DNA of 51,247 bases from Roseiflexus sp. Lineage in GTDB: Bacteria; Chloroflexota; Chloroflexia; Chloroflexales; Roseiflexaceae. The DNA lies in the NCBI GenBank assembly GCA_025062325.1, contig JANXAL010000063.1, positions 1-51,247 of the forward strand, read 5' to 3'. The notes under the pieces were generated by a model. The model did not search any database. It saw nothing but the letters and a program-made list of their open reading frames with translations, and was not told where the DNA came from. Positions 11,921 to 50,850 of this stretch are shown piece after piece. The first letter of the stretch is position 1; each line of letters starts with the position of its first letter. Position numbers and translations under genes: made by a program.

Positions 11921-12535
11921 TCAGGCGTCCGACAGCACATCAGCCCAAGCTGCCCGTTCTTCGTCAGTCGGGGCGCTATCGGCAAACGCCTGCGCAAAAC
12001 TGACCGTCGGCTCTTCTGGTTCGACGATTCCATCCTCAGCGTTTAGCCGCGCTGCTGTACTAACCGGCGGCGGGGCGAGCAGCGCTGCTCGAATAGCGGA
12101 CGTAGTAGTTTGCAGGGCATCAGCCAGGCGCTCGATCAATCGTTCGGGGATGGTTGCGACGCGCACTTTACCGCGCTCCAAGCGCGCCAGCAGATCGACC
12201 GGCAGTTGCAACTGGCGTGCTAGTTGTCCAACCGTCATTTGCCGCGCCTTACGCAGGTCGGTCAGATTCTGTATCGGCTCGCCGCTCAATTCGCGCTCAA
12301 ATGCGGCTCGCGCCAGCGCCATGACTCGGCTGGCAGCCGCTTCTTCCGACGGCGACAGAACTGCTGGCTCGTCCAGTTCGCCAAGCGTCAGGTTGAACTC
12401 GAGAAAAGCGCGCAGCTCTTCGCGCACCTCCGGCGGTTCCTGGGCTACAAATGCATCGAGGCTGATGATCTGACCGGATTCGAGCAGCTCCTCGTAACGC
12501 AGCGCCGCCTCGATGAAATACGAACGGTCTTTCAT
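11921..12535 (-). CDS. XRE-type helix-turn-helix protein, likely partner of the sigma-like factor
   Basis: The 204-aa product has a central XRE HTH (about residues 93-145): LRKARQMTVGQLARQLQLPV followed by LLARLERGKVRVATIPE. The N-terminal 60 residues are acidic and helical (EELLESGQIISLDAFVAQEP), similar to the first part of zinc-less anti-sigma-like proteins found beside ECF sigma factors in Chloroflexi. The C-terminus is acidic and ends AAWADVLSD. The start overlaps the stop of the sigma-like gene by 4 bp (ATGA), so translation is probably coupled. It may regulate the operon, bind the sigma factor, or be the substrate of the ImmA domain encoded downstream; none of these can be told from sequence alone. 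Confidence 0.78.
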   Translation of the reverse strand: MKDRSYFIEAALRYEELLESGQIISLDAFVAQEPPEVREELRAFLEFNLTLGELDEPAVLSPSEEAAASRVMALARAAFERELSGEPIQNLTDLRKARQMTVGQLARQLQLPVDLLARLERGKVRVATIPERLIERLADALQTTTSAIRAALLAPPPVSTAARLNAEDGIVEPEEPTVSFAQAFADSAPTDEERAAWADVLSDA

Positions 12536-13179
12536 GATGACTCCCCAGTCGTCAACATCTGACGCAACCGTTTGACCGCGCGTTCGTAAGTGCGTGAAAC
12601 TGTTGCGGGCGACACCCCGAGCATCTGTGCAGTATCAGTCCCGCGCACTCCTTCCAGACGATGGGTGATAACAATACGTTCGGTCGTGGGAAGCGCTGCA
12701 ATCGCTTCATACAATCGCCTGCGCTCATCTTCATCACAGTACGCTTCAACAAGACGTTCCAGCGTCGGATCTTCGATCACCTCGTGGAGCGGCGGACCAT
12801 CGTCGCCAACCGGTGCGTCCAGGCTCACGGTAGAAGATAAGATATTCTGCCGGTTGTTTTTTCGTTCGTAGAGAATGCGGTTTACCGTGGTCGAGATGTA
12901 CGCGCCAAATTTACGCTCCATGCTGCTGAATCCAGGACTGCGCAGGTCTTTGTGAAGTTGTTCGATAACTGCACGCAGAAGATCGCTGCAGGCGTCCTCG
13001 TCCAGTCCCAGCTTGCGCGCCCGCCCATAGATCCAGTTGCGCACTGCAAGGATCACGGCGTCGAGGTCCGCCCAGAGTTCGGGCGTCAACGCGCCGCCTG
13101 TCGTCAGCACCGCGCGAATGCGTGTCACGCGCCGCTGACATTCCTGGACCACTTCATGCCACGAACGTTGCTGTGCCAT
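12532..13179 (-). CDS. ECF-like RNA polymerase sigma factor
   Basis: The 215-aa product has a sigma region 2-like helical part (DEDACSDLLRAVIEQLHKDL, FGAYISTTVNRILYERK) and a clear region 4 helix-turn-helix (IAALPTTERIVITHRLEG, GTDTAQMLGVSPATVSRTYE, RAVKRLRQML). The region between them is acidic (DDGPPLHEVIEDPTLERLVE). It belongs to the ECF/sigma-70-like group, though the -10-binding region is not typical. ATG 13179 is preferred; a TTG nine bases upstream is in frame. The gene leads the minus-strand operon with the XRE protein and the ImmA-UvrD fusion, so it may direct their expression. It is divergent from the DUF4258-like gene. Confidence 0.8.
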   Translation of the reverse strand: MAQQRSWHEVVQECQRRVTRIRAVLTTGGALTPELWADLDAVILAVRNWIYGRARKLGLDEDACSDLLRAVIEQLHKDLRSPGFSSMERKFGAYISTTVNRILYERKNNRQNILSSTVSLDAPVGDDGPPLHEVIEDPTLERLVEAYCDEDERRRLYEAIAALPTTERIVITHRLEGVRGTDTAQMLGVSPATVSRTYERAVKRLRQMLTTGESS

Positions 13180-13249
13180 TCCCACCAACCGCCTTCGTCA
13201 GGTCGCCCAAGCCACAACTGCGCATTACGCCTCTCAAGATCCGGTTCCC

Positions 13250-34767: not shown

Positions 34768-35000
34768 TAAATGCATAGCCTGCTTCGCGTTCAACGCACG
34801 AGCGCCGCACCTTCCGCCTTCGCACCTTGCCCTCTTCTCCTCTTGCCCTGCGTCTCTTACCTCTTTTGCGCCTCTTTACGTTTTGCAAAATCGCACTCAA
34901 ACCGATCCATTTCCGGTACCGTCGGGCGCTTGACCTTCGCCGATCTTCCATAGTATGCTTGCGCAAGGTGAATAAATTGTTGTTCATTTGCGACAGTGCC

Positions 35001-35471
35001 ATGACCATGACAGGCATGCGATCCGATAGCGCTGGGCAAACCGACCAGAGTGTGCTGCTGATCCGTCTAGCGGACGAGGTTTATGCACTGCCGTCGTCGT
35101 ATGTGCGCGAAGTCGGGCGCTATCGGGCGTTCACTCCCGTCCCCGGCGCCCCGTCAACGATTCCCGGTATCATTAGCCAGCGTGGCGTTATCCTGCCGGT
35201 AGTAGATCTGCGCCTGGTGCTAGGCCTGCCAACTGCTGAAACATCTCGCTCGACACGTTTGGTGACAGTCGCTTACGAAGACGTCGATATGGCGCTGCTG
35301 GTCGACGCGGTGATTGATCTGGCAGTAGTGCCGGGGGACGCCTTCGGGCAGCCGCCAGCCGGTCTTGACCCGGCGCGCGCCCGGTTGCTCCGCGCTGTCG
35401 CGCTTCATGAAGACCAGACCGTGGCGCTGCTCGATGTGGGGGAAATTGTTGCAGCGCTGCGGGAGGCGTAG
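35001..35471 (+). CDS. cheW: CheW-like coupling protein 1
   Basis: The 156-aa product is a CheW domain: VLLIRLADEVYALPSSYVRE, TPVPGAPSTIPGIISQRGVI with LPVVDLRLVLGL, and ALLVDAVIDLAVVP. CheW links chemoreceptors to CheA. The frame is open upstream through the low-complexity gap, but ATG 35001 gives a normal N-terminus and is preferred; ATG 35007 and 35016 are close alternatives. It opens the chemosensory cluster. Confidence 0.85.
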   Translation: MTMTGMRSDSAGQTDQSVLLIRLADEVYALPSSYVREVGRYRAFTPVPGAPSTIPGIISQRGVILPVVDLRLVLGLPTAETSRSTRLVTVAYEDVDMALLVDAVIDLAVVPGDAFGQPPAGLDPARARLLRAVALHEDQTVALLDVGEIVAALREA

Positions 35472-35650
35472 GGAAGATGAGAAAGGCGAGACGAGCGGCG
35501 CGAGGGTATGGCGACAGGAGAAGTGCAGGTTGAAAGTGCTCTGAGGAATGATACAGGTCAACGACAAGCAGTCTAACCCATAACCCATAATCCATAATCC
35601 ATGACCCATAACCCGTGACCCCTAACTCTTAGCTCTCAATTCTCGGCTCA
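35472..35650. repeat. low-complexity intergenic repeat (CCATAACCCATAATCC type)
   Basis: 35575-35650 is a run of near-identical units such as CCCATAACCCATAATCC, CCATAATCCATGACCC and CCCTAACTCTTAGCTC. A similar TAACTCC run is at 18205-18240. Unit slippage probably makes them variable. Confidence 0.5.
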
Positions 35651-36070
35651 ATGTTGCTTATCGTTCGCACAGCACGACATCGTTACATAGTCCGGCGTGA
35701 AGACGTAGCGGCGCTCCGCGCCTTTACTCGGATCGCCAGTTATCATCAGCCAGGGGACGAGGGTCGAACCTCTATCATAGTGGAGTTAGGACCGCTGCTT
35801 GACCCTGCTGATATCAGTGTGATGCAGCGACGGCACGCCCTGATCATTCCCCTGCGGCGACGCACCATTGCGCTGCTCGTCGATGCAGTGGATAACCTGG
35901 TTGATCACGCTGTCGTTCAGCCGCTGCCGCCGTTGTTGCGCGAGCGCTTGCGTGAACCCTGGGCAACCGGCGTGCTTATGGTTGACGAACAGCCTGTCGT
36001 GCAACTCGATGTGCGGGCGATCGCGCGAAGCATTCTGCTGAGACGAGCACGTGACGCAGAACAGAAGTGA
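35651..36070 (+). CDS. CheW-like coupling protein 2
   Basis: The 139-aa product is a shorter and more divergent CheW domain: [42 protein letters not shown] and VQLDVRAI. It lacks the full N-terminal strands of CheW1 and may bind a different receptor or phase. The MCP gene begins seven bases after its stop (ATG 36078). Confidence 0.75.
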
Positions 36071-36077
36071 GCGACGT

Positions 36078-37613
36078 ATGGAACAGGTCTCGAATCGCCA
36101 GATGTTTGCCAGTGTCATTACCAATCCGCAGAGTCAGGACGAAGACCGCGCCAGGGTGTTGGCGCACCTGACGCTGGTATTCGGCAGCGTCGCGGGCGTC
36201 GGGTGCGTGCTGGTGATCATCCTTGCGCTGATTGGCATTATGCCCCAGCAGGTGGTCAATGCAGCATTTGGCGTGATCGCCATGGCAGCGACGATTGTCG
36301 GCGGCACGCTTGGCGCGTTGCGCCTCGGCAGACACGCGGCAGCGTCAAATGTTTTTCTGTACGGCTCGCTCATCTACGTCATCGGCATGATCTATCTGGC
36401 AGGCGGCGTTTCTGGTCCCGCCGGGATTGCATTTCTCTTCCCGATTGTGGTTGCTGGATTGTTCGGGCGCGCCGCCGAGAGTCCGCGTTTGTTCGGCGTT
36501 GCGCTCGCGTCATACGTCGCTCTTGCGATTGCCGAAACCGCTGGCATCCTTCAACCGCAGAATGATCTGCCAGGACTGCCGCGCACCGTGGCGTTTCTCA
36601 TTTTTTTCACCTGCGTCGGCGGCCTGCTGACCTACGTCGCGTCGCTCTGGTCGACCAGCACCATGCGTTTTCTGGAGCAAACCAGAGCGCAGTCGGAGGA
36701 GCTGTACGAGACGAACCAGCGGTTGATTGAAAAGAATATTCAGCAGGTTGAGCTGGGGAGTGAACTCGCAGCCGCAGCGACCGAGCTGTTGCGCGCCTCG
36801 CACGAGCAGGCGAGCGGCGCATCCGAGCAGGCAAGCGCTGTTTCGCAGGTGAGCACGACCATTGAGGAGCTGGGATCGACAGCGCGCCAGATAGCCATTG
36901 CCGCTGAACAGGTAGCGGAGGCGGCGCGACAGACGCTCGAAAATCTGAGCGAAGGACAGGAAGCCGTCGACAAGAGTATTCAGGCGATGGACCGCATTCG
37001 CAACCGCATGCAGGATATCTCGGCGCGGGTGCTGAACCTTGGTGAGCGATCACAGCAGATAGGCGAGATTATTGATCTGATCAACGACCTCTCCGATGAA
37101 ACACACCTGCTGGCGCTCAACGCCGCCATCGAAGCCGCTGGCGCCGGGGAACATGGTCGTCGGTTTGCGGTTGTGGCAGCCGAAGTCAAGAGCCTCGCCA
37201 ATCGTGCGCTGCTTGCTGCCAAAGAGGTCAAAGGCGTTATTGCCGAAATTCAGCAGGCGACCAATGCCGCCGTGCTGGCCGCCGAGGAGGGCGGCAAGGA
37301 AGTCGCCGCTGGCGTCGAACTGGCGCATAGCGCTGGTCAGGTGATGGATATCATCGTGATGGCGGCGGAGCGCACTGCGCAGAGCAGCGCCGAGATCAAT
37401 CTGGCGACGGCGCAGCAGCAGAGCGCCAGCGAGCAAGTTGTGGAAACCATGCGCGAGATTGCCGATGTGGCGCGTCGCACAGCGGCAGGTGCGCGTCAGG
37501 TGCAGGACGCTGCACAGCGTCTGACTGCCATCGCCAACCGGTTGCATGGTCTCTCACAGGACGGGAGCGAGGCGCAAGGCAAGCGACGAGAGGCAAGAGA
37601 GAGCGCCGGTTGA
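36078..37613 (+). CDS. methyl-accepting chemotaxis protein with multi-pass membrane sensor
   Basis: The 511-aa product has about six membrane helices in residues 35-200 ([58 protein letters not shown]) and no large periplasmic domain or clear HAMP. The cytoplasmic rest is a long MCP coiled coil with the hairpin tip [20 protein letters not shown] followed by [17 protein letters not shown]. It probably senses membrane or intracellular signals and controls CheA. ATG 36078 is preferred; GTG 36051 is in frame but overlaps cheW2. Confidence 0.88.
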
Positions 37614-37702
37614 AGGTGCGTAGATCAGAGGCGTGACCGGTGGAGCCATTGCCCTGCAACAGCTCGAAAAAGCGCACCGCACCACCCTCCGTTGCAGGGC
37701 GG

Positions 37703-37723
37703 AGCCGGTGCTCTGCACCGGCT
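37703..37723 (+). terminator. 9-bp perfect hairpin downstream of the MCP gene
   Basis: AGCCGGTGC and GCACCGGCT flank a 3-nt loop, and an outer CCCTGCAAC/GTTGCAGGG pair lies just upstream. There is no T run, so this could be a Rho-dependent or attenuating structure before cheA rather than a true terminator. Confidence 0.35.
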
Positions 37724-37760
37724 TATGCCATGGGCAGTAAAAAGGAATTGTTGAACGTCT

Positions 37761-39992
37761 ATGGACCTGGCGTCGTTCTACAGCCAGTTTCGCGATGAAA
37801 CAGCGGAAAACCTCCGCATCATCACCGATGGTCTCATGGCGCTTGAGAGGAACAATTTGGAGGGTGAAGCGCGCCGTGAGCGGATCGACGCCATTTTTCG
37901 CGCCATGCACACGATCAAGGGTTCGGCGCGAATGCTTGGTCTGGAGGATATCGGCAAAGTTGCGCATACCTGCGAGCATATTCTGGCGGCAGTGCGCGAC
38001 GGTCGGCGCACGCTGGATCGCTTCCTCATCGATGAACTATTGAAGGGGAGCGATGCCATCCTGGAGTTGCTAACCGCTGCAATCGATGGCAGGCCGTCGT
38101 CGGTTGACGTTGAAGCGTTGACCAACAGGCTTGGACGGGGAGCGCCCCAACCTGCGCTTTCAACCGAGATGCCAGCGGCGACCTCGCCCGAACCGCTGCA
38201 ACCGTCGGTCGATGAGGGCGCTCCGCAACATGTGACGAAGAGCGGCCGCGAACGCATACGTCAGACGGTGCGCGTGCGGGTGGATCGGTTGGACCGCTTG
38301 TTGAACCTGGCGGGTGAATTGTCCATCGACAGACAGGTCGAGGATATGCACCTTCAGGCGCTGGAGGAGTTAAAAGGGTTGCTCGAACGCCAGCAACGTT
38401 CATTGCTAACCCTTGAAGCTGAGCTGCGACGCATGCATCTCGCGCCCAATCAGCGCCAACTGTTCGAACGTGAAATGAACAGCGCCCTGAATGCCAGCGA
38501 GCGCGCCGGTTCTATCGTCAGGTCGCAGCTTGACCGCATCGGGCAGCATACGATGCATAAGGCGCAGTTGATCGACGATCTCGAACAGGAGGTCATGGCG
38601 ATCCGTCTAACACCAGTGGCGACCCTGTACGCCAATCTGCCGCGCGCCGTTCGTGAACTAGCGCGCGATCTCGGCAAGGAGGCGTCGCTGGCGCTCATTG
38701 GCGAGACGACCGAGCTGGATCGGAAGGTTATTGAGATGCTTTCCGACCCGATGGTGCATCTCATTCGGAACGCGATTGATCATGGCATCGAGCCGCCCGA
38801 GGAACGCCAGCGACTGGGAAAGCCGCGTCAGGGATTGATCGAGATAGCAGCGCAGGCGCAAGGCGGTCGGGTGCTGATCAGCGTGCGCGACGACGGGCGC
38901 GGCATGGATCCGCAGCAGTTGCGAGAGGCGGCAGTGCGCAAAGGGCTGATCGACGCCGATGCTGCAGCGGCGCTTTCGGATCAGGAGGCGCTGGAATTAA
39001 TTTTCATTCCAGGGTTTACTACCGCAAAAATCATTACCGATGTTTCAGGGCGCGGGGTTGGCATGGACGTGGTCCGTACCAATCTTGCCGAGATCGGCGG
39101 CGAAGTGCAGATCGAGTCGCAGCTCGGCGTCGGTACGACGGTCACGCTCTCCTTGCCGCTGACTCTGGTCACTACGCGAGTGTTACTGATAGAGGCGGGC
39201 GGTCAGTTATTCGGCTTTCCGGCATCGGGATGCCAGGGCACGGTGTGGGTGCGCCGCAACCAGATTCGCACCGTGGAAGGTCGAGCGGTCTTTCAACACA
39301 ACCAGATATTGACGCCGCTGCTGCGGTTAGATGAATTGCTCGGGATTGCAAACGGACATCCCTTCGCCAGCGCCGCGCGCGCGCCGGCGCTGCTGATCGG
39401 CGGCGCGCGTCGACCGATGGCGTTGCTGGTCGATCGGATGGTCGATGAACGGGAAGCGGTCATCAAACCGCTCGGTCCGCTCCTGGAGAAACAGCGGCGG
39501 TACAGCGGCGCATTGCAACTCGGCGATGGACGACTGGCGCTGCTGCTCAACCCGATGACGCTGACGCAACTGGGACGCGGAACGGCGCTGGTTGCACACG
39601 CGCCGGAGCAGAGCCAGCGACGCCGCGCGCGATTGCTTGTGGTGGATGACTCCTTCGCCACCCGCGAGTTGCTCCGTAGTATCCTGAACGCCGCCGGGTA
39701 CGAGGTGGCGACCGCTGTCGATGGCCTCGATGCGCTTGACAGACTCCGCGCTGAAACCTACGATCTCGTCGTCAGCGACGTCGAAATGCCCCGGATGGAT
39801 GGCTTCGCTCTGACCAGTCGCATCCGCAACGATTTGGGCAAGACCGATCTGCCAGTCATTATTGTGACCAGTTTGGCGTCGGAGGCGCACCGTCGGCGCG
39901 GGCTGGAAGTCGGCGCACAGGCGTACATTGTCAAAAGTCAGTTCAATCAGAATAACCTGCTGGAAACCATCCGGCAGTTGATCGGCGTGTGA
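37761..39992 (+). CDS. cheA: hybrid chemotaxis histidine kinase CheA with C-terminal receiver
   Basis: The 743-aa product has an N-terminal HPt domain with the phosphorylated histidine in MHTIKGSARMLG (about residue 50), a dimerisation helix pair with LNLAGELSIDRQ, a GHKL ATPase domain (LIRNAIDHGIEPPEERQRLG, RDDGRGMD, GRGVGMDVV), a CheW-like domain (about 470-610) and a receiver domain at the end (RLLVVDDSFATREL, LVVSDVEMPRMDG, VTSLAS). No P2 domain is evident. The attached receiver suggests a phosphate sink or internal relay, as in gliding-motility and other alternative chemosensory systems. ATG 37761 gives a normal start. Confidence 0.93.
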   Translation: MDLASFYSQFRDETAENLRIITDGLMALERNNLEGEARRERIDAIFRAMHTIKGSARMLGLEDIGKVAHTCEHILAAVRDGRRTLDRFLIDELLKGSDAILELLTAAIDGRPSSVDVEALTNRLGRGAPQPALSTEMPAATSPEPLQPSVDEGAPQHVTKSGRERIRQTVRVRVDRLDRLLNLAGELSIDRQVEDMHLQALEELKGLLERQQRSLLTLEAELRRMHLAPNQRQLFEREMNSALNASERAGSIVRSQLDRIGQHTMHKAQLIDDLEQEVMAIRLTPVATLYANLPRAVRELARDLGKEASLALIGETTELDRKVIEMLSDPMVHLIRNAIDHGIEPPEERQRLGKPRQGLIEIAAQAQGGRVLISVRDDGRGMDPQQLREAAVRKGLIDADAAAALSDQEALELIFIPGFTTAKIITDVSGRGVGMDVVRTNLAEIGGEVQIESQLGVGTTVTLSLPLTLVTTRVLLIEAGGQLFGFPASGCQGTVWVRRNQIRTVEGRAVFQHNQILTPLLRLDELLGIANGHPFASAARAPALLIGGARRPMALLVDRMVDEREAVIKPLGPLLEKQRRYSGALQLGDGRLALLLNPMTLTQLGRGTALVAHAPEQSQRRRARLLVVDDSFATRELLRSILNAAGYEVATAVDGLDALDRLRAETYDLVVSDVEMPRMDGFALTSRIRNDLGKTDLPVIIVTSLASEAHRRRGLEVGAQAYIVKSQFNQNNLLETIRQLIGV

Positions 39993-40063
39993 TCATCCCC
40001 TGATTTCTATCGTTGCTCAGGTCCCACAGACCGATTGCGACGTGAAAGGATACGAGGCGTACC

Positions 40064-40426
40064 ATGGCAGAAAAGATCCTGGTGGTCGACGATAGCAAGC
40101 TAGTAACCGATATTGTCAAGATGCGACTCGGCATGTACGGCTACGAGGTGCGCCTGGCCCACAGCGGCGAAGAGGCGCTCAAGGCGATAGAGGAGGAAGT
40201 GCCTGATCTATTGGTGCTCGATGTGCACATGCCGGGAATCGATGGGTATGAAGTCTGCCGCCGGCTGCGCGACAACCCGGCTCTCGATGACCTGCGCATC
40301 ATTATGCTGACATCGAGTGACGACAAACATGCCGCATTTGAGGCGGGCGTCGATGACTATCTAAATAAAGATGTTGATCTGCTCAACCTGCCGAACCGGG
40401 TCAAGATGATCCTGGAAATGGAGTAG
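40064..40426 (+). CDS. CheY-like response regulator, receiver only
   Basis: The 120-aa product is a single receiver: ILVVDDSKLVTDIV with the acidic pocket, the phosphorylated aspartate in LLVLDVHMPGIDGYE, TSSDD with the conserved serine/threonine position and LNKD with the conserved lysine. It has no output domain and would carry the signal from CheA to a motor or another protein. An AAAGGA box lies upstream. Confidence 0.88.
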   Translation: MAEKILVVDDSKLVTDIVKMRLGMYGYEVRLAHSGEEALKAIEEEVPDLLVLDVHMPGIDGYEVCRRLRDNPALDDLRIIMLTSSDDKHAAFEAGVDDYLNKDVDLLNLPNRVKMILEME

Positions 40427-40445
40427 CACGGTTAACGTGCTTCTG

Positions 40446-40471
40446 GCAGGCATTGTTCAGCCGATGCCTGC
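40446..40471 (+). terminator. possible terminator hairpin after the receiver gene
   Basis: GCAGGCAT and ATGCCTGC form an 8-bp perfect stem around a 10-nt loop, followed by GCGGTTGTTT. The short T-rich stretch makes a weak intrinsic terminator possible between the receiver and cheB. Confidence 0.35.
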
Positions 40472-40586
40472 GCGGTTGTTTGCCCTGCATTTCCCAACAC
40501 GCTGCTGCGTCGCGCTAGCGGCTTGTTGATATGGACGAACGTCCTGCTCTCGCCAGTCGTTCGCAGTGAACGAAATGAGCTGACCC

Positions 40587-41726
40587 ATGACCAGACCCAT
40601 CCGCGTTGTCGTAGTGGACGACTCTGCTCTCATGCGGCGTTTTATTACCGACATGCTGCACCGCGATCCGGCAATTCAGGTTGTCGGCGTCGCCGCGAAC
40701 GGGCGCGAGGCAATCGAGGTGGTGCAACGGTTGCGCCCCGATGTGGTCACCATGGACGTGCGCATGCCGGTGATGGATGGGCTGGCGACGACTGAGCACC
40801 TAATGGCGTATTGCCCGACGCCGATCCTGGTGCTGACGGCGTCGCTTGCCAGTTATGAGGTGGACATCACCTTCAAAATGCTTGGCGCCGGTGCGCTTGA
40901 GGTGGTCGAAAAGCCGCGCGGCGGCGACGCACAAGCCCTTGAGCGCGCCGCACGCGATCTGGTGCGGCGGGTCAAGATTCTGTCGCGGGTTAGGGTCGTC
41001 ACCCACTTGCGCGGTCGCCGTCGTGCGCTCAATGAAGGGTTATCGCAGCAAGCGGCATCTCTGCCTAATCGAGCAGTGGTGCAGGACAAGCTGCTGGCGG
41101 ACCCGACTGCCGCTTCGTCTGTTCCGCCGGTCAGCAGCGGACCTGATGCGCTGCTCAGCCCGATCGTCGTTATAGGTGCAAGCACAGGCGGGCCGCGTGT
41201 TATCCACCAAATCATTTCCGGTCTTCCGCGCACATTCCCCGCTGCCGTCTTGGTGGTACAGCATATCGCGGAAGGATTCAGCGCAGGCATGGCAGAGTGG
41301 CTGGCAAGCGCTGGCACGTTGCCAGTGCGTATGGCGCAGGAAGGATCGCCCATTCGCGCAGGGGAAGTGCTAATTGCTCCTGACCGGCGCAATCTGCTGG
41401 TAACGCACGATGGCACGGTTCATTTGAGCGATGCGCCGCTGCTCATTCAGCGACCATCAATCGATGTCACGATGCAGGCAGTTGCCGATGTGTGGGGGTC
41501 GCGCGCAGTCGGAGTGCTGTTGACCGGCATGGGGCGCGATGGCGCATATGGCATGCGGTCGCTCCACCGTCGTCGCGCGTATACCATTGCGCAGGACGAA
41601 GCGAGTTGCGCAATATTTGGCATGCCACGCGCGGCCATCCAACTCGGCGCTGTGCGCGAAGTGTTGCCGCCTGCCGCCATTGCGCCGCGGTTGGTGGAAG
41701 TGGTAGCCGAGTTGGTCAAAGGTTGA
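40587..41726 (+). CDS. cheB: chemotaxis protein-glutamate methylesterase CheB
   Basis: The 379-aa product has a receiver domain (VVVVDDSALMRRF, phosphorylated aspartate in VTMDVRMPVMDG) and a CheB methylesterase domain with the catalytic serine in GASTGGP, histidine in VVQHIAEGF and aspartate in LLTGMGRDGA. It removes methyl groups from, or deamidates, MCP glutamate side chains and so resets the receptors. The linker (about residues 145-190) is longer than usual. Its opposing enzyme CheR is the next gene. Confidence 0.94.
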   Translation: MTRPIRVVVVDDSALMRRFITDMLHRDPAIQVVGVAANGREAIEVVQRLRPDVVTMDVRMPVMDGLATTEHLMAYCPTPILVLTASLASYEVDITFKMLGAGALEVVEKPRGGDAQALERAARDLVRRVKILSRVRVVTHLRGRRRALNEGLSQQAASLPNRAVVQDKLLADPTAASSVPPVSSGPDALLSPIVVIGASTGGPRVIHQIISGLPRTFPAAVLVVQHIAEGFSAGMAEWLASAGTLPVRMAQEGSPIRAGEVLIAPDRRNLLVTHDGTVHLSDAPLLIQRPSIDVTMQAVADVWGSRAVGVLLTGMGRDGAYGMRSLHRRRAYTIAQDEASCAIFGMPRAAIQLGAVREVLPPAAIAPRLVEVVAELVKG

Positions 41727-42076
41727 AAGTGCGCGGGTTTCCGGTAGCGAAGGTCACTGCACCGTCTTGAAGCATACGCGGCGGGGGCGCATGCCGCGCG
41801 CCCATCCAGGGGTGCAGTCGCAGGCAGGCTGGTGGAAGGTAGTACGAGGCGCCAAGTGCGAGAGAGAGTGTCTGGAGAAGACAGGTGCGTTGCTATGCCT
41901 CGGTGATTAGGAAACGGGTGTGTAAGGGGCAGGTTGCACGTCGCCTGTCGCGCAGAGGAAAGCGCCATAGGTGCGCCTCCTCGTGGACGCCCGCCTGGAC
42001 AGCGACAGCATAGCGCGACATTGCAATCTGTTGCAACACTTACGATTCAGGTCACATGCACAATGATTGAATACCA
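41727..42076. other. intergenic, no gene recognised
   Basis: The 350-bp gap between cheB and cheR has a GC-rich imperfect palindrome near 41779-41810 (GGGGGCGCATGCCGCGCGCC) and no convincing open frame or promoter. Confidence 0.4.
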
Positions 42077-43579
42077 ATGAATGGTATGGACACCGCGCCC
42101 GATCTGTGTGTTCTGTCGCCGGTGCGTCTCTCGCCAGAAGCGTTTGACCGGTTGCGCACCCTGCTGGCGGATTACAGCGGCGTCTACTTGGATACGGCGC
42201 AGCAGCGCGTCCTGGAGGCTGGTCTGGCGCAGCGCATGGCGGCGCTCGGCGAAACGCTCGAGGCATATGAGCGTCGCATTAGCGCGCCATCCGGTCGCAG
42301 CGAACTCCACCGCCTGGCGGAAATGGTAGTCAACCACGAGACCTTTTTCTTCCGCAATGCGCCGCACATGCGCGCGCTGCGCGAAACCTTGCTCTTTGAG
42401 TTGCACCGCTGCAAACCGCCGGGCGAGCCGATCCGCATCTGGAGCGCCGGGTGCGCAACCGGCGAAGAAGCGTATTCTCTGGCGATTACGGTGTTGGAAA
42501 CGTTTGGATCGACAATTGCGCGCCCGGTCGAGATCTGGGCGACCGATCTGAGCGAACTGGCGCTCGAAAAGGCGCGCGCTGGCTTTTACCGGGGCCGCTC
42601 GCTCAACAATGTGACGCCTGCGCTGCTCAATCGCTACTTTGTTCGGCAGGGCGACGGGTTCCTCGTGTCGGACGCCGTGCGTGCGCTGGTGCGTTTCGAG
42701 CAATTGAATCTGCTCGAGGCATTTCCGCCGACTGCGTATGGCGTCGATGCGATTTTCTGTCAGAATGTGACAATCTATTTTCGCCCGGAGACGCGACGAT
42801 CCTTGATCGAACGGTTTTACCGCTGCTTGCCAGCCCATGGGCTGCTCTTTTTGGGATTTTCAGAAACGCTCTGGAATGTCTTCGATGGATTTCGCTCGCG
42901 TGAGGTTGCGGGCGCCTATGTTTACCAAAAAGTCGAACGTCCTGATCACAGCGTGCCGCGTCGCACCATGCCGCGCCGACCGACGCCGACCGGAGAGATC
43001 CGGCGACGTTCCCCCCTGATCGTCGAGGCGCCGCACACCACTTCCCGCGAGCGACGACCGTCCGATGATCTGCTCGCATCTGAACCTAACAATGAGGATG
43101 CCAGTCGGATCGAACAGGCGCGAACGCTGATTGATGCTGGCAAGATCAACGAGGCGATGGATCTGCTGCGTCGCGTCCGTCCCAACTCATTGCTGGCGCC
43201 GCGCGCGCTGGTGCTGGTGGCGCGTGTGCACGCTGATCGCGGCGAACTCGATCTGGCAGTCGCCGAGGCGCGTCGCGCGCTTGAAATCGATGCACTGAGC
43301 AGCGACGCCTATCTTCTGATCGGAACGATTTATGCGCGTCAGGGTCAATGGAACGAAGCGATCCAGGCGCTCGAACGCGCGCGCTACCTGGATCCCGATA
43401 CAGCGCTGATTTCCTACCATCTGGCGCTGGCATACAAGCAGGCGGGAAAAACGGAGCGGGCGACGCGCGAATTCCGCAACGCGCTGCGCAAACTGGCAGC
43501 CTACCGTTCCGAAGATCTGATTGAAGGCGTTGAAGTTGGCTGGTTGCGCGCCTCGTGCGAGCAGCACCTGGGAATGTAA
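42077..43579 (+). CDS. cheR: CheR-type methyltransferase with C-terminal TPR domain
   Basis: The 500-aa product begins with the CheR N-terminal helical domain (FDRLRTLLADYSGVYLDT, NHETFFFRN) and a SAM-binding Rossmann domain (IRIWSAGCATGEEAYSLAI, EIWATDLSELALEKAR). The motif usually written CRNVLIYF reads CQNVTIYF. A proline- and arginine-rich linker (about 285-335) leads to three TPR-like repeats (about 345-480). CheR methylates MCP glutamates; TPR fusions are known from alternative chemosensory systems and may dock the enzyme on a partner. Confidence 0.9.
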   Translation: MNGMDTAPDLCVLSPVRLSPEAFDRLRTLLADYSGVYLDTAQQRVLEAGLAQRMAALGETLEAYERRISAPSGRSELHRLAEMVVNHETFFFRNAPHMRALRETLLFELHRCKPPGEPIRIWSAGCATGEEAYSLAITVLETFGSTIARPVEIWATDLSELALEKARAGFYRGRSLNNVTPALLNRYFVRQGDGFLVSDAVRALVRFEQLNLLEAFPPTAYGVDAIFCQNVTIYFRPETRRSLIERFYRCLPAHGLLFLGFSETLWNVFDGFRSREVAGAYVYQKVERPDHSVPRRTMPRRPTPTGEIRRRSPLIVEAPHTTSRERRPSDDLLASEPNNEDASRIEQARTLIDAGKINEAMDLLRRVRPNSLLAPRALVLVARVHADRGELDLAVAEARRALEIDALSSDAYLLIGTIYARQGQWNEAIQALERARYLDPDTALISYHLALAYKQAGKTERATREFRNALRKLAAYRSEDLIEGVEVGWLRASCEQHLGM

Positions 43580-43585
43580 CACGGT

Positions 43586-44674
43586 ATGCGAAAACGTCGT
43601 AAACAGCCAAAGCGCCATTTCACGCTGCTTAGCCACATAGCGACGGGCCGACCGCGACGCGTCAGCCGTCCTGCGCCGCCGCAACCGCAGATCGGTCCAG
43701 AGGAGGCGCGCCGTCAGGCGGAGATCGAGCGCGAACTCCTCCTAGCGCGTGATATTCAGCAAGGTTTGCTGCTCGAGGCAGTACCGCATCTGCCCGGTTG
43801 GGAGATTCACGCAATTTCGCTGCCAGCGCGCGATCTAGGAGGCGACCTGTACGATTTTCTGCCGCTTGGCAACGGGCGCCACGGGATCATGATCGGGGAT
43901 GTTTCGGGCAAAGGGTTGCCAGCGGCATTGCGCATGGCAGTAGCGCGCACTGTCTTTCGCTACGTCGCCCGACGCGGCGCTGCGCCGGGCAGCACGCTGG
44001 CTGACGTCAATCGCGGGATTATCGCCGATATTCCGCAGGGCATGATCACCATGCTCTACGCTATGCTCGATCTGCGCCAGGGCATCGTGCGGATTGCCAA
44101 TGCCGGGCATCACTACCCGTTGCTGCTGAACGGGCGCGTCAGCGAACTGGAACTGTCGGGATTGCCGCTCGGCGTGGATGACGATGCGGAGTATGAAGAG
44201 ATCTGCGTGGCGATCGAACCGGGCAACACCGTAATCATGTATACCGATGGAGTGGTCGAAGCGACGAATAGCAACGGCAAATATTTCGGATATGAGCGGT
44301 TGGAGCGTCTGCTGACCGAAGGCGCCGCCCTGAAACCGCGGGCGTTGGTGGCGCGCCTGTTGCACGAATTGCGCACGTGGAGCGACGCCGGACAAGACGA
44401 CGACATTACCGTTGTGGCGGTGCGCCGGCGATTTGAGCGCCTGGCGGATGAGCTGCGCAGCATTATGCGCGATGTGTTGGGCGAGGAACGCGGCGAAGAG
44501 GCATGGCAGACGTTGCCGCACCCGGGTGACTCAGGCGTGGCTGCGTGGACAGAGGCGTTGCCAGAGATCGTCAAAGCTGCGCAGAGTCGGTTTGGGCGCG
44601 GTCTGGCGCGCGAGTTGAATGCACAGATCCGGCTGGCGCTCGAGGAGTATCGGGATCAGAAAAAATGTGACTAA
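43586..44674 (+). CDS. SpoIIE/RsbU-type PP2C protein phosphatase
   Basis: The 362-aa product has a basic N-terminus, a short coiled coil (EEARRQAEIERELLLARDIQ, the RsbU-like switch helix ending QQGLLLEAVP) and a PP2C-type SpoIIE domain: ARDLGGDLYDFL, GIMIGDVSGKGLPAALRMA, IANAGHHYPLLL, MYTDGVVEATN and GQDDDITVVAV, with all metal-binding aspartates. A helical tail of about 80 residues follows. It would dephosphorylate the STAS anti-anti-sigma protein encoded at 46809. It lies six bases after cheR, which suggests that chemosensory input feeds it. Confidence 0.9.
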   Translation: MRKRRKQPKRHFTLLSHIATGRPRRVSRPAPPQPQIGPEEARRQAEIERELLLARDIQQGLLLEAVPHLPGWEIHAISLPARDLGGDLYDFLPLGNGRHGIMIGDVSGKGLPAALRMAVARTVFRYVARRGAAPGSTLADVNRGIIADIPQGMITMLYAMLDLRQGIVRIANAGHHYPLLLNGRVSELELSGLPLGVDDDAEYEEICVAIEPGNTVIMYTDGVVEATNSNGKYFGYERLERLLTEGAALKPRALVARLLHELRTWSDAGQDDDITVVAVRRRFERLADELRSIMRDVLGEERGEEAWQTLPHPGDSGVAAWTEALPEIVKAAQSRFGRGLARELNAQIRLALEEYRDQKKCD

Positions 44675-44702
44675 GGCGCTACTAAACTGCAATCAAGACG
44701 CC

Positions 44703-44731
44703 TTCAAGAGTGCAAAGGTTCATAGTAGAAT
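44703..44731 (+). promoter_or_regulatory. weak candidate promoter before the TPR gene
   Basis: TTCAAG and TAGAAT are 17 bp apart in the 120-bp gap after the phosphatase gene. The -35 match is poor. Confidence 0.3.
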
Positions 44732-44794
44732 AGAGGGAAAGCATCAACCAAAGGCGGATGCATAAACGTCAACCGTAAAGGGCACAGGTAGACG

Positions 44795-46363
44795 ATGAGT
44801 TCGACAGAACCGCTCAATTTCATGCCGCTTGATCTGGACACGTTCAGCGGGAGCGAGCGATTCATGGCTGGGACGCGCCTGGGGGCGGCGTTCAGTCAGG
44901 GCATTCGCGCCTACCTGCGTGCTGACTATGCAAGCGCGATTGAGCACTTTAAGGCGGCGCTGATTGCCGCCTACATCGAAGGGGAAGAGCGTGCTCAGAT
45001 CTATGATCGCGAACGCGCGATCATCTATCTCTACATCGGCAATGCGCTGGCGTACCAGGAAGATTGGGAAGGTGCATTGCGCGAGTATCTGGAAGCCGTC
45101 CAGACTGACCCGCAACTGGCAGAGGCGCACTACAATCTGGGGGTGGCATTTGCGGCGCAGGGTCGCCTTGATCGCGCCATTGCTGCGTTCAAGGAAGCCA
45201 TCGAGCACAATCCGCGCCTGTACGAAGCGCACTTCTCGCTCGGGCGCTGCTACCAGCGGCTCGACGATGCCGGGCGCGCATACATTCACTACGACCAGGC
45301 ATGTCAGGCGCGTCCGCAGGCAGCCGAGCCGCGCTACTATATGGGATTGATGCATCAGAGCCATGGCGCGCACGAACTGGCGCAGCGCTGTTTCGCTGAG
45401 GCGCTGCGCGTTGAGCCAACCTTCGTCTCTCCAGAGTTGCAGGACGAAGTGCTCGTCAACCGCTCGGAAGAGGAAGTTGCGCAGTGGTACTACCGGCTCA
45501 GCAACGACCTGAAGCAGCAGGGGTATGAAGAGGAGGCGGAGCGGATCTATCGCGCGCTCTTGCAGTGGCGACCGGAAGAGCACTATGCGCGGTATCTGCT
45601 CGGCAATCTGCTGGCGCGGGCGCGGCGGCTCGACGAGGCGCTCGAAGAGTATGCTCGAATTCCGCCGCAGGATAAGCACTACGTCGATGCGCGCATTCGG
45701 ATCAGCGCCATTCTCAAGTTGCAGAACAAAATGCGCGAGGCGTACGATACCCTCTTCGAGTGCGCCAAACTGCACCCCACGAACGGTCAGTTGTTTCTGA
45801 ACATGGGTAAACTCCTCTACGACATGAACAAGCACGCGGCTGCAGTCAAGGCGTTCGAGCGCGCCGTGCAGTTGCTGCCCAACGATCCGCAGGCGCACTA
45901 TCTGCTCGGGTTCATGTACAACCTCATGGGACGCGAAGGGTGGGCGCTGGCCGCCTGGCGCAAGGCGGTCGAACTGGCGCCGGACGCGCACTCGCTGCGG
46001 TACGACCTCGGCTATATGTATATGCGGCGCAACCGCTACGACCTAGCAGCGAAAGAGTTTGCGCGTGTGCTCCAGTTCTGGCCCGATGACGTCGAAACGA
46101 ACTTTATGCTCGGGTTGTGCTACAAAGAGTTGATGGAACCGGCGCGCGCCATCCCGCTGTTCGAGAAGGTGCTGCGACGTAATCCGCGCCATGTGCAGGC
46201 GCTGTATTACCTGGGCGCGTCCTACCTGCAGATTGGTAACACCTCACTGGGCAAAGCCTATCTCCGGCGCTACGACTACCTGGTGAGCCAGGAACAGGCA
46301 GGCGCGTCCGCGTCGCATCACGCCATGCGGCAGCGCAGCGTTGGCATGGTGGGTTCATCGTAA
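44795..46363 (+). CDS. large TPR-repeat scaffold protein
   Basis: The 522-aa product is almost wholly tetratricopeptide repeats, about ten from residue 60 to the end. Examples are AEAHYNLGVAFAAQGRLDRA, YEAHFSLGRCYQRLDDAGRA, AHYLLGFMYNLMGREGWALA and ETNFMLGLCYKELMEPARAI. It has no signal peptide or membrane segment, so it is probably a cytoplasmic scaffold. Its place between the phosphatase and the anti-sigma-like kinase, with only 15 bp to the latter, suggests that it binds components of this module. Confidence 0.82.
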   Translation: MSSTEPLNFMPLDLDTFSGSERFMAGTRLGAAFSQGIRAYLRADYASAIEHFKAALIAAYIEGEERAQIYDRERAIIYLYIGNALAYQEDWEGALREYLEAVQTDPQLAEAHYNLGVAFAAQGRLDRAIAAFKEAIEHNPRLYEAHFSLGRCYQRLDDAGRAYIHYDQACQARPQAAEPRYYMGLMHQSHGAHELAQRCFAEALRVEPTFVSPELQDEVLVNRSEEEVAQWYYRLSNDLKQQGYEEEAERIYRALLQWRPEEHYARYLLGNLLARARRLDEALEEYARIPPQDKHYVDARIRISAILKLQNKMREAYDTLFECAKLHPTNGQLFLNMGKLLYDMNKHAAAVKAFERAVQLLPNDPQAHYLLGFMYNLMGREGWALAAWRKAVELAPDAHSLRYDLGYMYMRRNRYDLAAKEFARVLQFWPDDVETNFMLGLCYKELMEPARAIPLFEKVLRRNPRHVQALYYLGASYLQIGNTSLGKAYLRRYDYLVSQEQAGASASHHAMRQRSVGMVGSS

Positions 46364-46378
46364 GCGTTGAGGAGCGAC

Positions 46379-46819
46379 ATGTCCATGCATCAAGTCCTAG
46401 TGAACATTCCGTCCGTGCCCATATTCGAACGTGTCGTTCGCGCCAGCGCCGATGAGGTTGGGCGTGCGCTCGGGTTCAGCGCCGAGCGCGTCGAAGACTT
46501 GAAGCTGGCGGTTAGCGAGGCGGTGAACAATGCCATCGATCACGGCAACAAGCGTCAGCCCGGTAAGCTGGTGGAAGTCGTCTTTGCGCTCCATAGCGAT
46601 AAGCTTGAAGTCCACGTGACCGACGAGGGCGGCGGTGTCGAAATGGTCGATTTCTCCCGGAAAGTCATTGACGATCAGAATCTCGATGCAGGTATGCATC
46701 GCGGCTTTGGCATGTACCTGATCAGCGCCCTGGTTGATGACTGCGAAGTGAATTCGTCACAGTCAGGCACAACGTTGACACTACGTCTCTATCGGAGGAA
46801 CCAGGACCATGACGAATGA
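46379..46819 (+). CDS. RsbW-like anti-sigma factor/serine kinase
   Basis: The 146-aa product is a GHKL-type kinase: LKLAVSEAVNNAIDHGNKRQ is the N-box, VTDEGGGVEM the G1-box and HRGFGMYLISALVDD the G2-box. It would phosphorylate the STAS protein and hold a sigma factor or other partner. A GAGGAG box precedes ATG 46379; ATG 46385 and TTG 46367 are in-frame alternatives. It overlaps the following STAS gene by 11 bp, so the two are translated together. Its sigma partner is not adjacent; the nearest sigma-like gene is at 12532-13179. Confidence 0.88.
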   Translation: MSMHQVLVNIPSVPIFERVVRASADEVGRALGFSAERVEDLKLAVSEAVNNAIDHGNKRQPGKLVEVVFALHSDKLEVHVTDEGGGVEMVDFSRKVIDDQNLDAGMHRGFGMYLISALVDDCEVNSSQSGTTLTLRLYRRNQDHDE

Positions 46820-47153
46820 GATGAGCGAAGTGATCCGCCGGGAAGAATTCGGCGATGTCGCGGTGCTGCACATTATGACGAATAGCGTCGATGCGGTGTC
46901 GGCGAGCGCCATCGAAGCCGTCGCTACGGCGACAACGATGCGCCCGATCACTGTCCTTGATTTTGCCAATGTGTCTTTCATTAATTCAGCGGGCATCTCT
47001 GCCCTGCTCAAGTTTGTTGTGTCAGCAAAGAAGTCTGGCTATACACTGTATGCAATGAATGTGACTCCGCACCACCAGAAGGTCTTCAAGATGGTCGAGA
47101 TGTCACGCTATATGCCCCCCATTGAAGAGCGCGACCTGGCGGCGTATCGGTAA
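46809..47153 (+). CDS. STAS-domain anti-anti-sigma factor (RsbV-like)
   Basis: The 114-aa product is a single STAS domain with the phosphorylatable serine in SFINSAGISALL and FANVSF just before. When dephosphorylated by the SpoIIE-type phosphatase it would bind the RsbW-like kinase and release its partner. GGAGGAACCAGGACC precedes the ATG, inside the end of the kinase gene. This is the last gene of the chemosensory and partner-switching cluster. Confidence 0.88.
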   Translation: MTNEMSEVIRREEFGDVAVLHIMTNSVDAVSASAIEAVATATTMRPITVLDFANVSFINSAGISALLKFVVSAKKSGYTLYAMNVTPHHQKVFKMVEMSRYMPPIEERDLAAYR

Positions 47154-47796: not shown

Positions 47797-48917
47797 TCAT
47801 CCTCTCTTCCGCGCTACGTAGAACGCCACGCCGCCGTCATTGACGACGAAAACGGTATCGGTTGAAGGGCGATGGAGCAGGAAGCCGCGCTGAAAGCGCC
47901 GATAGCCGCCGGTTTCGCCCTGCTCCGGTTCGATGGCCCACCCCAATCTGGCGCGCACGTCGGCGTTTCGTCCCCATAGATAGCCAAAGCCGCGTTCGGG
48001 GGCATACAGTCCGGAAGGCGGCGGTTCAGAAATGTCCGTGGGGGCTCCTTCGCTCCACTCATCAGCGAAACGCTGCCAGGTCCAGCGTTGCGGATCGGCG
48101 GGATCAGGAACGAAGACAAAGATCTCACCCGGAGCAATGGCATCGCCAGCGAATTGGCTGACCCATAGCATCATGCCGCGCTCAAAACGCTGAACAGCGA
48201 GCGGCGCGGGGCGCAACCCAATGTTCGTGACAAGAACTAGTTCGCGCGACGTCGCAATCGGGCAGCCGAGCAACGCCCGGTAAGCGTAGGCTACCGGCTC
48301 GTACTCCGCCAGAAGCGGGACGCAACCATCGATACGCATCACTTCAACTCCCAATCGTCCTAGAAGCACCTCGTAGGGCGTACCGGCAAGTTCTGCGTGA
48401 TACTCCATCCGCCGGCGCTCGAAGTATTGCACCGGGTAGATGCGTCCCTCAATCTCTTCCTCAAAGCGTTCCGTGATCGGGTAGCCGAAGCGCTCCAAAC
48501 CACCGCGCGTGCGCCAGTGGCTCAGGAATGGCTCGCATACCTGGTGACCGGTCACTGCGAAGTAGGCGCACCCCGGCGCTGCCTGCGCTACGGTCGGGAA
48601 CGTCTGCCAGGGACAGCCCTGCAATTCCAGGTGCCGCGCCCTAGGCGTCCAGCGGTCACGCGCCCGTCCGCCTGAATCTCCAGACGGTCGCGCTCGAACC
48701 ACTGCACCGTCAGCATGCGATCCTCGACCATTGCGGTTCGTTGAGCGCTGCTCGGCAAGCCGAATGTGCTCAAACCGCCATTCCGCCTCCAGTAAGCCAG
48801 GATCGGTCCAGAAATGCAATAGCCGGTCTCGCGGAAGCATTGCTCGCGGCTGGCGGCAACGCCACTCTGCGGGATCAGGATAACGCTCAGGAAGAGGAAC
48901 AGTGTGAGGCGTTTCAT
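47797..48917 (-). pseudogene. secreted protein with duplicated domain, frameshifted
   Basis: A gene starts at ATG 48917 with a signal peptide (MKRLTLFLFLSVILIPQSGV) and a first domain with CFRETGYCISGPILAYWRRN, GGLSTFGLPSSA and LTVQWFERDRLEI. It leaves its frame near 48647 (after VTAGRLG) and continues in the next frame with a second copy of the domain: GHQVCEPFLSHWRTRGGLER, FGYPITERFEEE and PVQYFERRRMEYH, then PYEVLLGRLG. One missing base explains the shift. The stop is at 47797. The remaining 250 residues are probably beta-rich. Proteins of this type are common secreted or cell-wall proteins in Chloroflexi, with no known function. The frame upstream of 48917 to 49179 is R1 repeat and not coding. 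Confidence 0.6.
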
Positions 48918-49120
48918 AGCATTCTCCGGGGGTGTTCAAGAGAGTCCGCTTGTATCTGGCGGGGTCATCTGTAGAAAAGAACGTTTCTCGCAAGCATTCT
49001 CTCTCATCGAAGGAACACGAATTCGCATGGACGCAATAGATGCACGCGGATCTGCTGGTAGGAGACGCCACGCCGTCCCGATCCATCTCGATCCGCAGTG
49101 GTCCCTGTGCTCTCTCAGGA

Positions 49121-49219
49121 ATGGATTTGTCGGCAAGTCCTTCCGTTGCATCGCCCGTTTTGAGCGTGAGGATGCGCAAACTCCCCCTTCTCCCCTGGAG
49201 GGAGCGGGGGGCAGGGGGT
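49121..49219. repeat. dispersed repeat R1 (copy C)
   Basis: GGCAAGTCCTTCCGTTGCAT, GCATCGCCCGTTTTGAGCG, AACTCCCCCTTCTCCCCTGG and the matching G-rich arm are present, nearly identical to copy E at the end of the window. Confidence 0.7.
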
Positions 49220-49589: not shown

Positions 49590-50850
49590 GTCAAAGGATG
49601 TCACTTGGACATCTATTATCCTACACGGAAACGTGAAACAATACTGGTAACGGTAAGGTGTAACTTGCTCGATGCTCTTTCCACCCCACCCCCAATTGAA
49701 AGAAGCTGAAATGCCATTGGCGCGCACTCCCATCATCAATGATGCGCCGGTAGCCCCGTTTGACCACCCAGCGCCCGACGCTGACCAACCAGAGATAGGC
49801 GAGCGCCAGCACCAACAGCAACTGGACGACCCGCTTGGTGTCCGTCAAGCCGCTCTGATCCAGGTGAAAGCCGCCGCTTTGCCAATCGCGAAAGACCGTC
49901 TCAATCCACATCCGGCGCTTGCCATATGCTTTTGTCTGCGCCGTGGCCGGCAGATTGGTCATAACGGCGTGCAACACGATCTTGCCATCATCATCGCGTT
50001 CCCGCCACGCCAGGACGTTGACCGGCCCATAGCGCTGCTCCTGGCCGAGATAGACCTGCGCCAGATAGGTCACCGGCGAGGCGCGATGGCGCCGTTTCCG
50101 TCCGGTGGCTGTTTGCGGCGGCAACGCCGTGACGTGATCGGCCAAGGGACGCCCGTCCACATGCGGTTCGGCGCTCGCGTAGACCCAGATCTGGCCGCGA
50201 ATGCCCAGCATGGCATCATACCCCTGCGCCCGCAACCAGCCAAACAGCTCCGGCGAGCGAAACTCGCTATCGCCGTGGACGCTCATCCGCACGTCTGGCG
50301 GCAACCGCGTCACGGCGGTTTGGCGGAGTTCCTGTTGCTCGCGCGGATTGCTCGACCCGCGATGCGGCAATGCGCACCAGACCAGCGGGATTGAGCGACG
50401 CCGGAACCCCACGCTGACCACCAGGATGGTGTGTTGGTTGCGCAGCAGCACGCGGTCCAGCAGCAGTTGCACCCGCTGACCGCGCAACCCATGGAGCGCG
50501 TGTTGCACCAGCGGATGGTAATGGCTGGGTTGGGTGATCCGTTCATTATCCAGCCAGCGGCGCAGGCGCTGCTCTTTGGCCAGGGCGGTGGTGTCGAGCG
50601 GCATCGCGCGGGCGATTTTGGCCAATTGACTACTCATACTCTGCACGACACCGACGAGGACCAGGCTCAGGGTATCGAGCTGACTCGCCAACGCCTGCGG
50701 CAGATGCTGCGCCAAACGGGCGCGTGTGCTAAGATAGAGCGGTGAGGTGGGCATGGAATGCTCCTTTCGCGTGATCAGTTTTTGGCACGCACGATCATAC
50801 GCAATTGGCGCATTCTGTCCACCTCCGTTTGTCAAGTGACATCCTTTGAC
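49590..50850 (-). mobile_element. IS4-type insertion sequence, 1261 bp
   Basis: The element is bounded by perfect 18-bp terminal inverted repeats, GTCAAAGGATGTCACTTG (49590-49607) and its complement (50833-50850), and by an 11-bp target duplication (GGAGACGCCCC). It holds one transposase gene on the minus strand. The length, repeat size and duplication length fit the IS4 family. Perfect ends and duplication indicate a recent insertion. It landed in a copy of the C-rich repeat also seen at 49220. Confidence 0.9.
49621..50754 (-). CDS. IS4-family DDE transposase
   Basis: The 377-aa product has DDE motifs: LLLDRVLLR with the first aspartate, SVHGDSEFRSPELFGWLRAQ with the second, and the YREK-like WIETVFRDWQSGGFHLDQ with the glutamate. 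The order and spacing fit IS4-type transposases. ATG 50754 (MPTSPLYLSTR) has AAAGGAG six bases before it; the frame is open 27 codons further upstream but that part lies close to the terminal repeat. The stop is 31 bp from the left terminal repeat. It looks intact. Confidence 0.9.
   Translation of the reverse strand: MPTSPLYLSTRARLAQHLPQALASQLDTLSLVLVGVVQSMSSQLAKIARAMPLDTTALAKEQRLRRWLDNERITQPSHYHPLVQHALHGLRGQRVQLLLDRVLLRNQHTILVVSVGFRRRSIPLVWCALPHRGSSNPREQQELRQTAVTRLPPDVRMSVHGDSEFRSPELFGWLRAQGYDAMLGIRGQIWVYASAEPHVDGRPLADHVTALPPQTATGRKRRHRASPVTYLAQVYLGQEQRYGPVNVLAWRERDDDGKIVLHAVMTNLPATAQTKAYGKRRMWIETVFRDWQSGGFHLDQSGLTDTKRVVQLLLVLALAYLWLVSVGRWVVKRGYRRIIDDGSARQWHFSFFQLGVGWKEHRASYTLPLPVLFHVSV

Follow-up and report, generated by a model that had tools for sequence, protein, structure and literature searches.

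A conserved gene cluster in Chloroflexales joins chemosensory genes to a partner-switching module

Chemosensory (Che) genes paired with a partner switch, a module of phosphatase, serine kinase and STAS protein, are already known from Shewanella (Che1–CrsR/CrsA, PMC9855816), from ancestral (stage 1) F7 clusters (PMC7184735) and from the gliding filaments of Nostoc punctiforme. HmpV, the STAS protein of the Nostoc switch, has been proposed as its output, acting on an undefined effector and not via a sequestered sigma factor (PMC6495340, PMC8256260). For the flagella-less filaments of Chloroflexales, gliding marker genes had not been identified (PMC5826079). Here we describe a cluster of eleven genes, all on the forward strand at positions 35001–47153, in which open reading frames (ORFs) and Pfam matches delineate a Che set followed by a partner switch. 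The cluster lies in a window of 51,247 nt, by which we mean the whole stretch of DNA analysed (contig JANXAL010000063.1, positions 1 to 51,247, of the Roseiflexus sp. assembly GCA_025062325.1; genome size 4.73 Mb). This conserved block suggests how Chloroflexales filaments convert a sensed signal into behaviour. We regard it as an evenly balanced proposition that the cluster is one signalling unit, in which phosphorylated CheY (CheY-P) would act via a TPR hub onto the phosphatase and the STAS protein would carry the output to gliding or other surface behaviour. A sequence-only reading of the window had called an output of this type unusual for a Che system, which holds only in part because Shewanella, F7 clusters and Nostoc also combine Che genes with a partner switch.

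Every gene named in that reading is in place on the forward strand with a Pfam match, the match of CheW2 being barely above the cut-off. Also as it had said, none of CheC, CheD and CheZ is found within the cluster (a genome-wide search for them was not made). In order, the genes are:

35001–35471, + strand: CheW1, a canonical coupling protein (PF01584, 101.7 bits)
35651–36070, + strand: CheW2, a divergent CheW (PF01584, 27.2 bits against a cut-off of 23.5)
36051–37613, + strand: methyl-accepting chemotaxis protein (MCP) with a membrane N terminus and no recognised ligand-binding domain (PF00015; hydropathy scan)
37761–39992, + strand: CheA-REC, with Hpt, long dimerisation region, HATPase, CheW and receiver domains (Pfam)
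40064–40426, + strand: CheY, a single receiver domain (Pfam)
40587–41726, + strand: CheB, REC-methylesterase (Pfam)
42077–43579, + strand: CheR-TPR, with TPRs at about residues 344–472 (Pfam)
43586–44674, + strand: SpoIIE/PPM-type Ser/Thr phosphatase (PF07228, 169.5 bits)
44795–46363, + strand: TPR scaffold, the proposed hub (Pfam; 13 predicted helix pairs)
46367–46819, + strand: RsbW-like serine kinase (PF13581; best Protein Data Bank match RsbW, 6m36)
46809–47153, + strand: STAS (RsbV-like) protein (PF01740)

The arrangement is conserved far beyond chance, with one order in tens of genomes and four families. We gathered the phosphatase orthologue and its neighbourhood from 40 relatives and from 55 loci of named organisms or metagenome-assembled genomes. 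Gene order is identical in families f1, f2, f3 and f4 of Chloroflexales wherever the contig is long enough, and rearranged or fragmentary loci are few (L108, L113). Named organisms with the block include Chloroflexus islandicus, four Herpetosiphon species, Kouleothrix, Oscillochloris and Viridilinea; a genome of the same genus as the window, Roseiflexus G003, is a single 5,801,598-bp sequence. Adjacent cluster genes are always co-oriented in the sampled loci, and the gap between cheR and the phosphatase gene has a median of 4 bp and a maximum of 134 bp over 44 loci. The cheR–phosphatase–TPR junction, whose conservation the sequence-only reading had proposed to check, is thus kept on one strand across four families. 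In genera g3, g7 and g8, the genomes tested have neither CheW nor the SpoIIE orthologue. Separately, a locus filed as Candidatus Gracilibacteria (L104) carries cheB-cheR-SpoIIE-TPR at 51–82% likeness to the window and is probably a misbinned Chloroflexales contig.

Of the members profiled, none is more constrained than CheY and the TPR protein, with 61% of CheY columns invariant over 22 loci and 210 of 522 TPR-protein columns (40%) invariant over 25. The TPR orthologue (E <= 1e-60) was sought in 400 Chloroflexota genomes and is present in 38 from Chloroflexales and in G314, an outgroup genome from another family of the same class; beyond Chloroflexales and this one related genome, no member of the family was found.

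The exceptions to this conservation are informative. First, in genome G024 the cluster is split, with cheW-MCP-cheA at 1.20 Mb and cheY-cheB-cheR-SpoIIE-TPR-RsbW-STAS at 1.74 Mb of contig C2, so that the break falls inside the Che part, between cheA and cheY, and not at the junction of cheR and phosphatase.

Second, genus g19 (G248, G286 and G293; perhaps Ca. Chloroploca) keeps the Che genes and the TPR gene while SpoIIE, RsbW and STAS are gone from the locus, the STAS orthologue being absent elsewhere in these genomes too. Of 186 TPR-protein residues that are otherwise invariant, 15 (8.1%) are lost in g19, compared with 6 of 334 for CheA, CheB and CheR together (Fisher P = 0.0008), and 11 of the 15 lie within the N-terminal half of the TPR protein (P = 0.006). 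Relative to the f4 median, the distance of g19 to f1 is 1.45–1.47 for the TPR protein and 1.35–1.45 for CheY, compared with 1.03–1.14 for CheA, CheB and CheR. These values suggest that TPR protein and CheY were relaxed in g19, where phosphatase, kinase and STAS protein were lost. In the deep family f2, TPR losses are also many (11.4%), but CheA (6.4%) and CheR (5.2%) likewise lose more there. A high TPR value for locus L144 in the rate test was discounted, as its TPR gene is seemingly split by a frameshift.

Third, in the outgroup G314, RsbW-STAS-SpoIIE-TPR lie on one contig and an orthologous Che set (MCP-CheW-CheA-CheY-CheB-CheR, with CheY 56% identical) on another, and the halves would therefore be separate modules by origin that were joined in Chloroflexales. 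Separate conservation of the halves, which the sequence-only reading had named as contrary evidence, is confined to this outgroup and, in part, to g19; otherwise the halves occur together.

Both exceptions would also be expected if Che system and switch were mere neighbours, two independently working systems held together by shared regulation. We think this very improbable, as the order is kept over four families with a 4-bp median junction, the G024 break falls at cheA|cheY, and the relaxation in g19 is specific to the TPR and CheY genes. Taken with the shared strand, the same observations make functional coupling of Che system and partner switch well supported at the level of gene order and sequence, and the TPR protein is likely the hub between the two coupled modules.

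In these proteins, the residues needed for catalysis and phosphorylation are intact. The positions checked for phosphotransfer, phosphatase, kinase and STAS function show little or no variation, each over about 50 rows. CheA carries the Hpt histidine together with dimerisation, ATPase and CheW domains and is accompanied by CheW and MCP, and the adaptation enzymes CheR and CheB are both present. CheA H50 is kept in every row that covers the position and D673 in all rows; its dimerisation domain is sub-threshold (19.6 versus 23 bits), spread across 114 residues. In CheY, D53 and K102 are invariant. The metal-binding D87, D105, D221, D272 and D273 of the phosphatase are invariant in 56 rows. E51, N55, H59, G60, D86 and G88 of the kinase are also invariant, and its N-box and G-boxes are present. 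The probable phospho-acceptor of the STAS protein is Ser60, which shows no variation in 54 rows and aligns with the DSAG serine of TM1442. The cheW1 ATG at 35001 is in frame within a longer ORF (34827–35471), and the CheW2 position is weak or substituted in other families.

Structure models add detail on the two central proteins. The phosphatase model (pLDDT 86) shows an N-terminal helix (38–62), a PPM domain (72–281) and a C-terminal four-helix bundle (286–361); its nearest folds are the RsbU domain of Rv1364c, RssB of P. aeruginosa and SiaA. The bundle apparently lies outside the region aligned to the best fold matches, and its conserved FGRGLARE stretch may be a docking site. A hidden REC or sensor domain was considered and rejected, as Pfam gave PF07228 only and the model shows none. 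The TPR model (pLDDT 85) has 13 helix pairs in two halves (28–206 and 225–514) around a weakly predicted break (207–224), so that the TPR scaffold of the sequence-only reading is present, its count of ten repeats giving way to 13 predicted helix pairs. A fold search with this model returned generic TPR superhelices only.

We propose that the membrane receptor, devoid of a ligand domain, and CheW1/CheW2 would control CheA-REC, with adaptation by CheB and CheR-TPR and with the CheA receiver perhaps acting as a phosphate sink; here gene content and residues are observed and the phosphoflow is conjectural. CheY-P would dock on the TPR scaffold, which would also hold the SpoIIE phosphatase, RsbW-STAS or both, and docking would set the phosphorylation of STAS Ser60. 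The target of free STAS protein, or of RsbW released from it, would not be a sigma factor of the SigB type; most likely it controls gliding, reversal or surface polysaccharide, as the Nostoc HmpV analogy suggests. In its strictest form, with the TPR protein as a CheY-gated adaptor, the phosphatase switched on the scaffold, and the STAS protein acting directly on the Chloroflexales gliding motor with no sigma factor, the proposal would amount to a new type of output for a Che system; we hold it as doubtful but worth stating.

Several points weigh against the proposed unit. The g19 test is suggestive and not proof because it concerns one clade and one event, with a region split chosen after the fact. 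In G314 the switch accompanies the TPR gene with no linked Che genes, so contact between TPR protein and switch need not involve CheY, and g19 keeps Che and TPR without the switch, so Che needs another output there. REC and REC-HD-GYP genes beside the cluster in some genomes could carry the output. Finally, the direction from CheY through TPR protein to phosphatase is a conjecture from sequence.

The switch could instead be a branch or feedback, in which signalling is tuned by the STAS protein or RsbW through binding to CheA, CheY or the array, and CheY-P drives the gliding machinery directly, perhaps via the TPR protein. A precedent is CheS of S. meliloti, a STAS-only protein from a che cluster that binds CheA (PMC12654446); the core also appears to work without the switch, since g19 retains Che and TPR, and CheY is extremely conserved. 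However, a full phosphatase–kinase–STAS cycle with intact active residues exceeds the needs of a single binding protein, and the CheS report names no RsbW or SpoIIE with it. We consider feedback of this kind unlikely, though a serious contender.

What the proposed unit would act on was approached through sigma factors, flagella and gliding. A SigB/F/G-type factor (TIGR02980) is above cut-off in 0 of 40 genomes; 1 of 14 control genomes, presumably B. subtilis, is above it. The source genome has five Sigma70_r3 genes, all SigA-like by eye, and otherwise weaker matches only. A dedicated sigma-factor output was accordingly not retained as a candidate, the Sigma70_r3 and SigBFG models having returned nothing beyond these. 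The TIGR02980 result removes a classical SigB-type target and leaves a SigA-like one. RsbW might thus sequester a SigA-like group 1/2 sigma factor, so that Che signals control transcription, comparable to the proposed control of RpoS by Shewanella Che1 through CrsR/CrsA, both of which the che1 locus includes (PMC9855816). Among solved structures the kinase is closest to RsbW, and the five SigA-like factors are available as partners. We find this option improbable: besides the TIGR02980 result, no sigma gene occurs in the conserved block or scanned flanking genes, and the kinase misses the RsbW and SpoIIAB equivalog cut-offs, phosphatase, kinase and STAS protein all being under named-protein cut-offs. 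Elsewhere in the window, an ORF at 12532–13188 (− strand) matches sigma-70 region 4 only; it is perhaps an ECF-type factor and is unlinked to the cluster.

The flagellar rod protein PF00460 is absent from the source genome and seven relatives, with control genomes positive, in agreement with the sequence-only reading that flagellar genes are lacking. In Herpetosiphon aurantiacus (G139) the cluster holds the only CheA and only MCP of the genome. The same is true of G264, which we take to be Chloroflexus aggregans and which has one orphan CheW besides. The genus Herpetosiphon glides, and a Herpetosiphon Che contig was noted in 2018 (PMC6210107); for C. aggregans, gliding and a tactic response to oxygen have been reported (PMC8004040). 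Chloroflexales are reported to bear pili close to the septa and to have no pilus genes other than Tad; by the septa of Ca. Viridilinea, an array resembling chemoreceptors was seen (PMC7332563). With no SigB/F/G-type factor, no flagellum, sole CheA and MCP in gliders and a septal array, surface (gliding) behaviour is the most likely output. The earlier proposal that receptor signals control the phosphatase and thereby a sigma factor or motility protein is thus well supported in its coupling, with motility favoured and the sigma factor not. Being the only Che system in H. aurantiacus, the cluster is an obvious entry point to gliding and steering, for which STAS and TPR proteins could be used as baits to capture the motor or a protein that regulates it. 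Roadblock/MglB-like and T2SSE proteins occur in all tested genomes and give no pointer to the motor, the T2SSE search being one that cannot tell pilus types apart.

In f4 and in parts of f1, STAS is commonly followed by a receiver and a REC-HD-GYP protein (L042:13338–15369 and L028:16528–18183, among others), and in f2 REC-HD-GYP occurs alone, farther downstream; these genes are a possible cyclic di-GMP branch. They were not counted as cluster members because, despite their recurrence in f4 and in parts of both f1 and f2, they are not beside the cluster in Roseiflexus or f3.

Related genes occur elsewhere in the source genome. A second Che cluster on contig C119 (about 77650–86000; L027:9159–17491) encodes CheW, MCP, CheA, receiver, CheW, CheB and CheR that are 26–42% identical, and no partner switch was found beside it. 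Two partner-switch-like groups were seen, one of a STAS and two tandem RsbW-like genes on C45 (L068:4080–5475) and one of a GAF-SpoIIE protein and a STAS protein on C20 (L070:2951–7181). Around the cluster itself, the upstream genes are a divergent, ABC-transporter-like pair as judged by eye. Downstream, a 460-aa ORF (47797–49179, − strand) has no Pfam or NCBIfam match and has relatives at the same site in G009 as well as in congeneric genomes, and a DDE transposase (49621–50835, − strand) lies close to the contig end. Promoter and terminator scans gave counts equal to those of shuffles and did not help to set transcript limits.

No description of a joint Che–partner-switch cluster of this kind or of the TPR hub was found in the literature searched. 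The switch resembles Bacillus RsbU/RsbW/RsbV in its PPM phosphatase, serine kinase and STAS protein with intact active residues, but here there is no SigB-type target and Pfam recognises no N-terminal sensor domain in the phosphatase. For the Che part, a 2012 study that noted CheR-TPR in the absence of flagella assigned every Chloroflexi pathway known at that time to the alternative cellular function (ACF) class (PMC3447774); the cluster shares CheR-TPR and lack of flagella with ACF pathways, but its CheY is a single domain and not a multidomain regulator. Chloroflexota CheA proteins with very long dimerisation domains were assigned to class Tfp (PMC10782961), and because the two assignments differ, the CheA class (ACF or Tfp) is unsettled.

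Frz of Myxococcus xanthus, which controls gliding reversals, likewise has two CheW proteins, one divergent, and a CheR with TPRs (PMC2535941, PMC6952110), and Pfam finds the corresponding combination of two CheW, CheA-REC and CheR-TPR here. FrzCD, however, is a cytoplasmic, nucleoid-bound receptor, whereas the MCP here has ~6 hydrophobic segments at its N terminus in the hydropathy scan; no partner switch was found described for Frz in the literature searched.

In Shewanella Che1, Che genes adjoin an anti-sigma-antagonist, and in ancestral F7 clusters they occur with an anti-sigma-antagonist and a serine phosphatase, but CheD is present in both types and their gene order differs. Here, by contrast, the phosphatase lacks the fused receiver typical of CrsR/HsbR (Pfam and model), CheY is separate, a TPR protein is present, and any RpoS-type link would be conjectural.

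A close parallel is the Hmp system of N. punctiforme (HmpA-F and HmpU-V-W), likewise a Che-like system with a phosphatase/STAS/kinase switch in a gliding filament (PMC6495340, PMC8256260), the likeness being one of gene kinds as described. Pili by septa are common to Nostoc and Chloroflexales (PMC7332563), although Nostoc relies on type IV pili and on HmpF, which is restricted to cyanobacteria (PMC12288463), and Chloroflexales are reported with Tad genes only. The cluster thus parallels, in an unrelated phylum, the pairing of Che system and partner switch of gliding cyanobacterial filaments.

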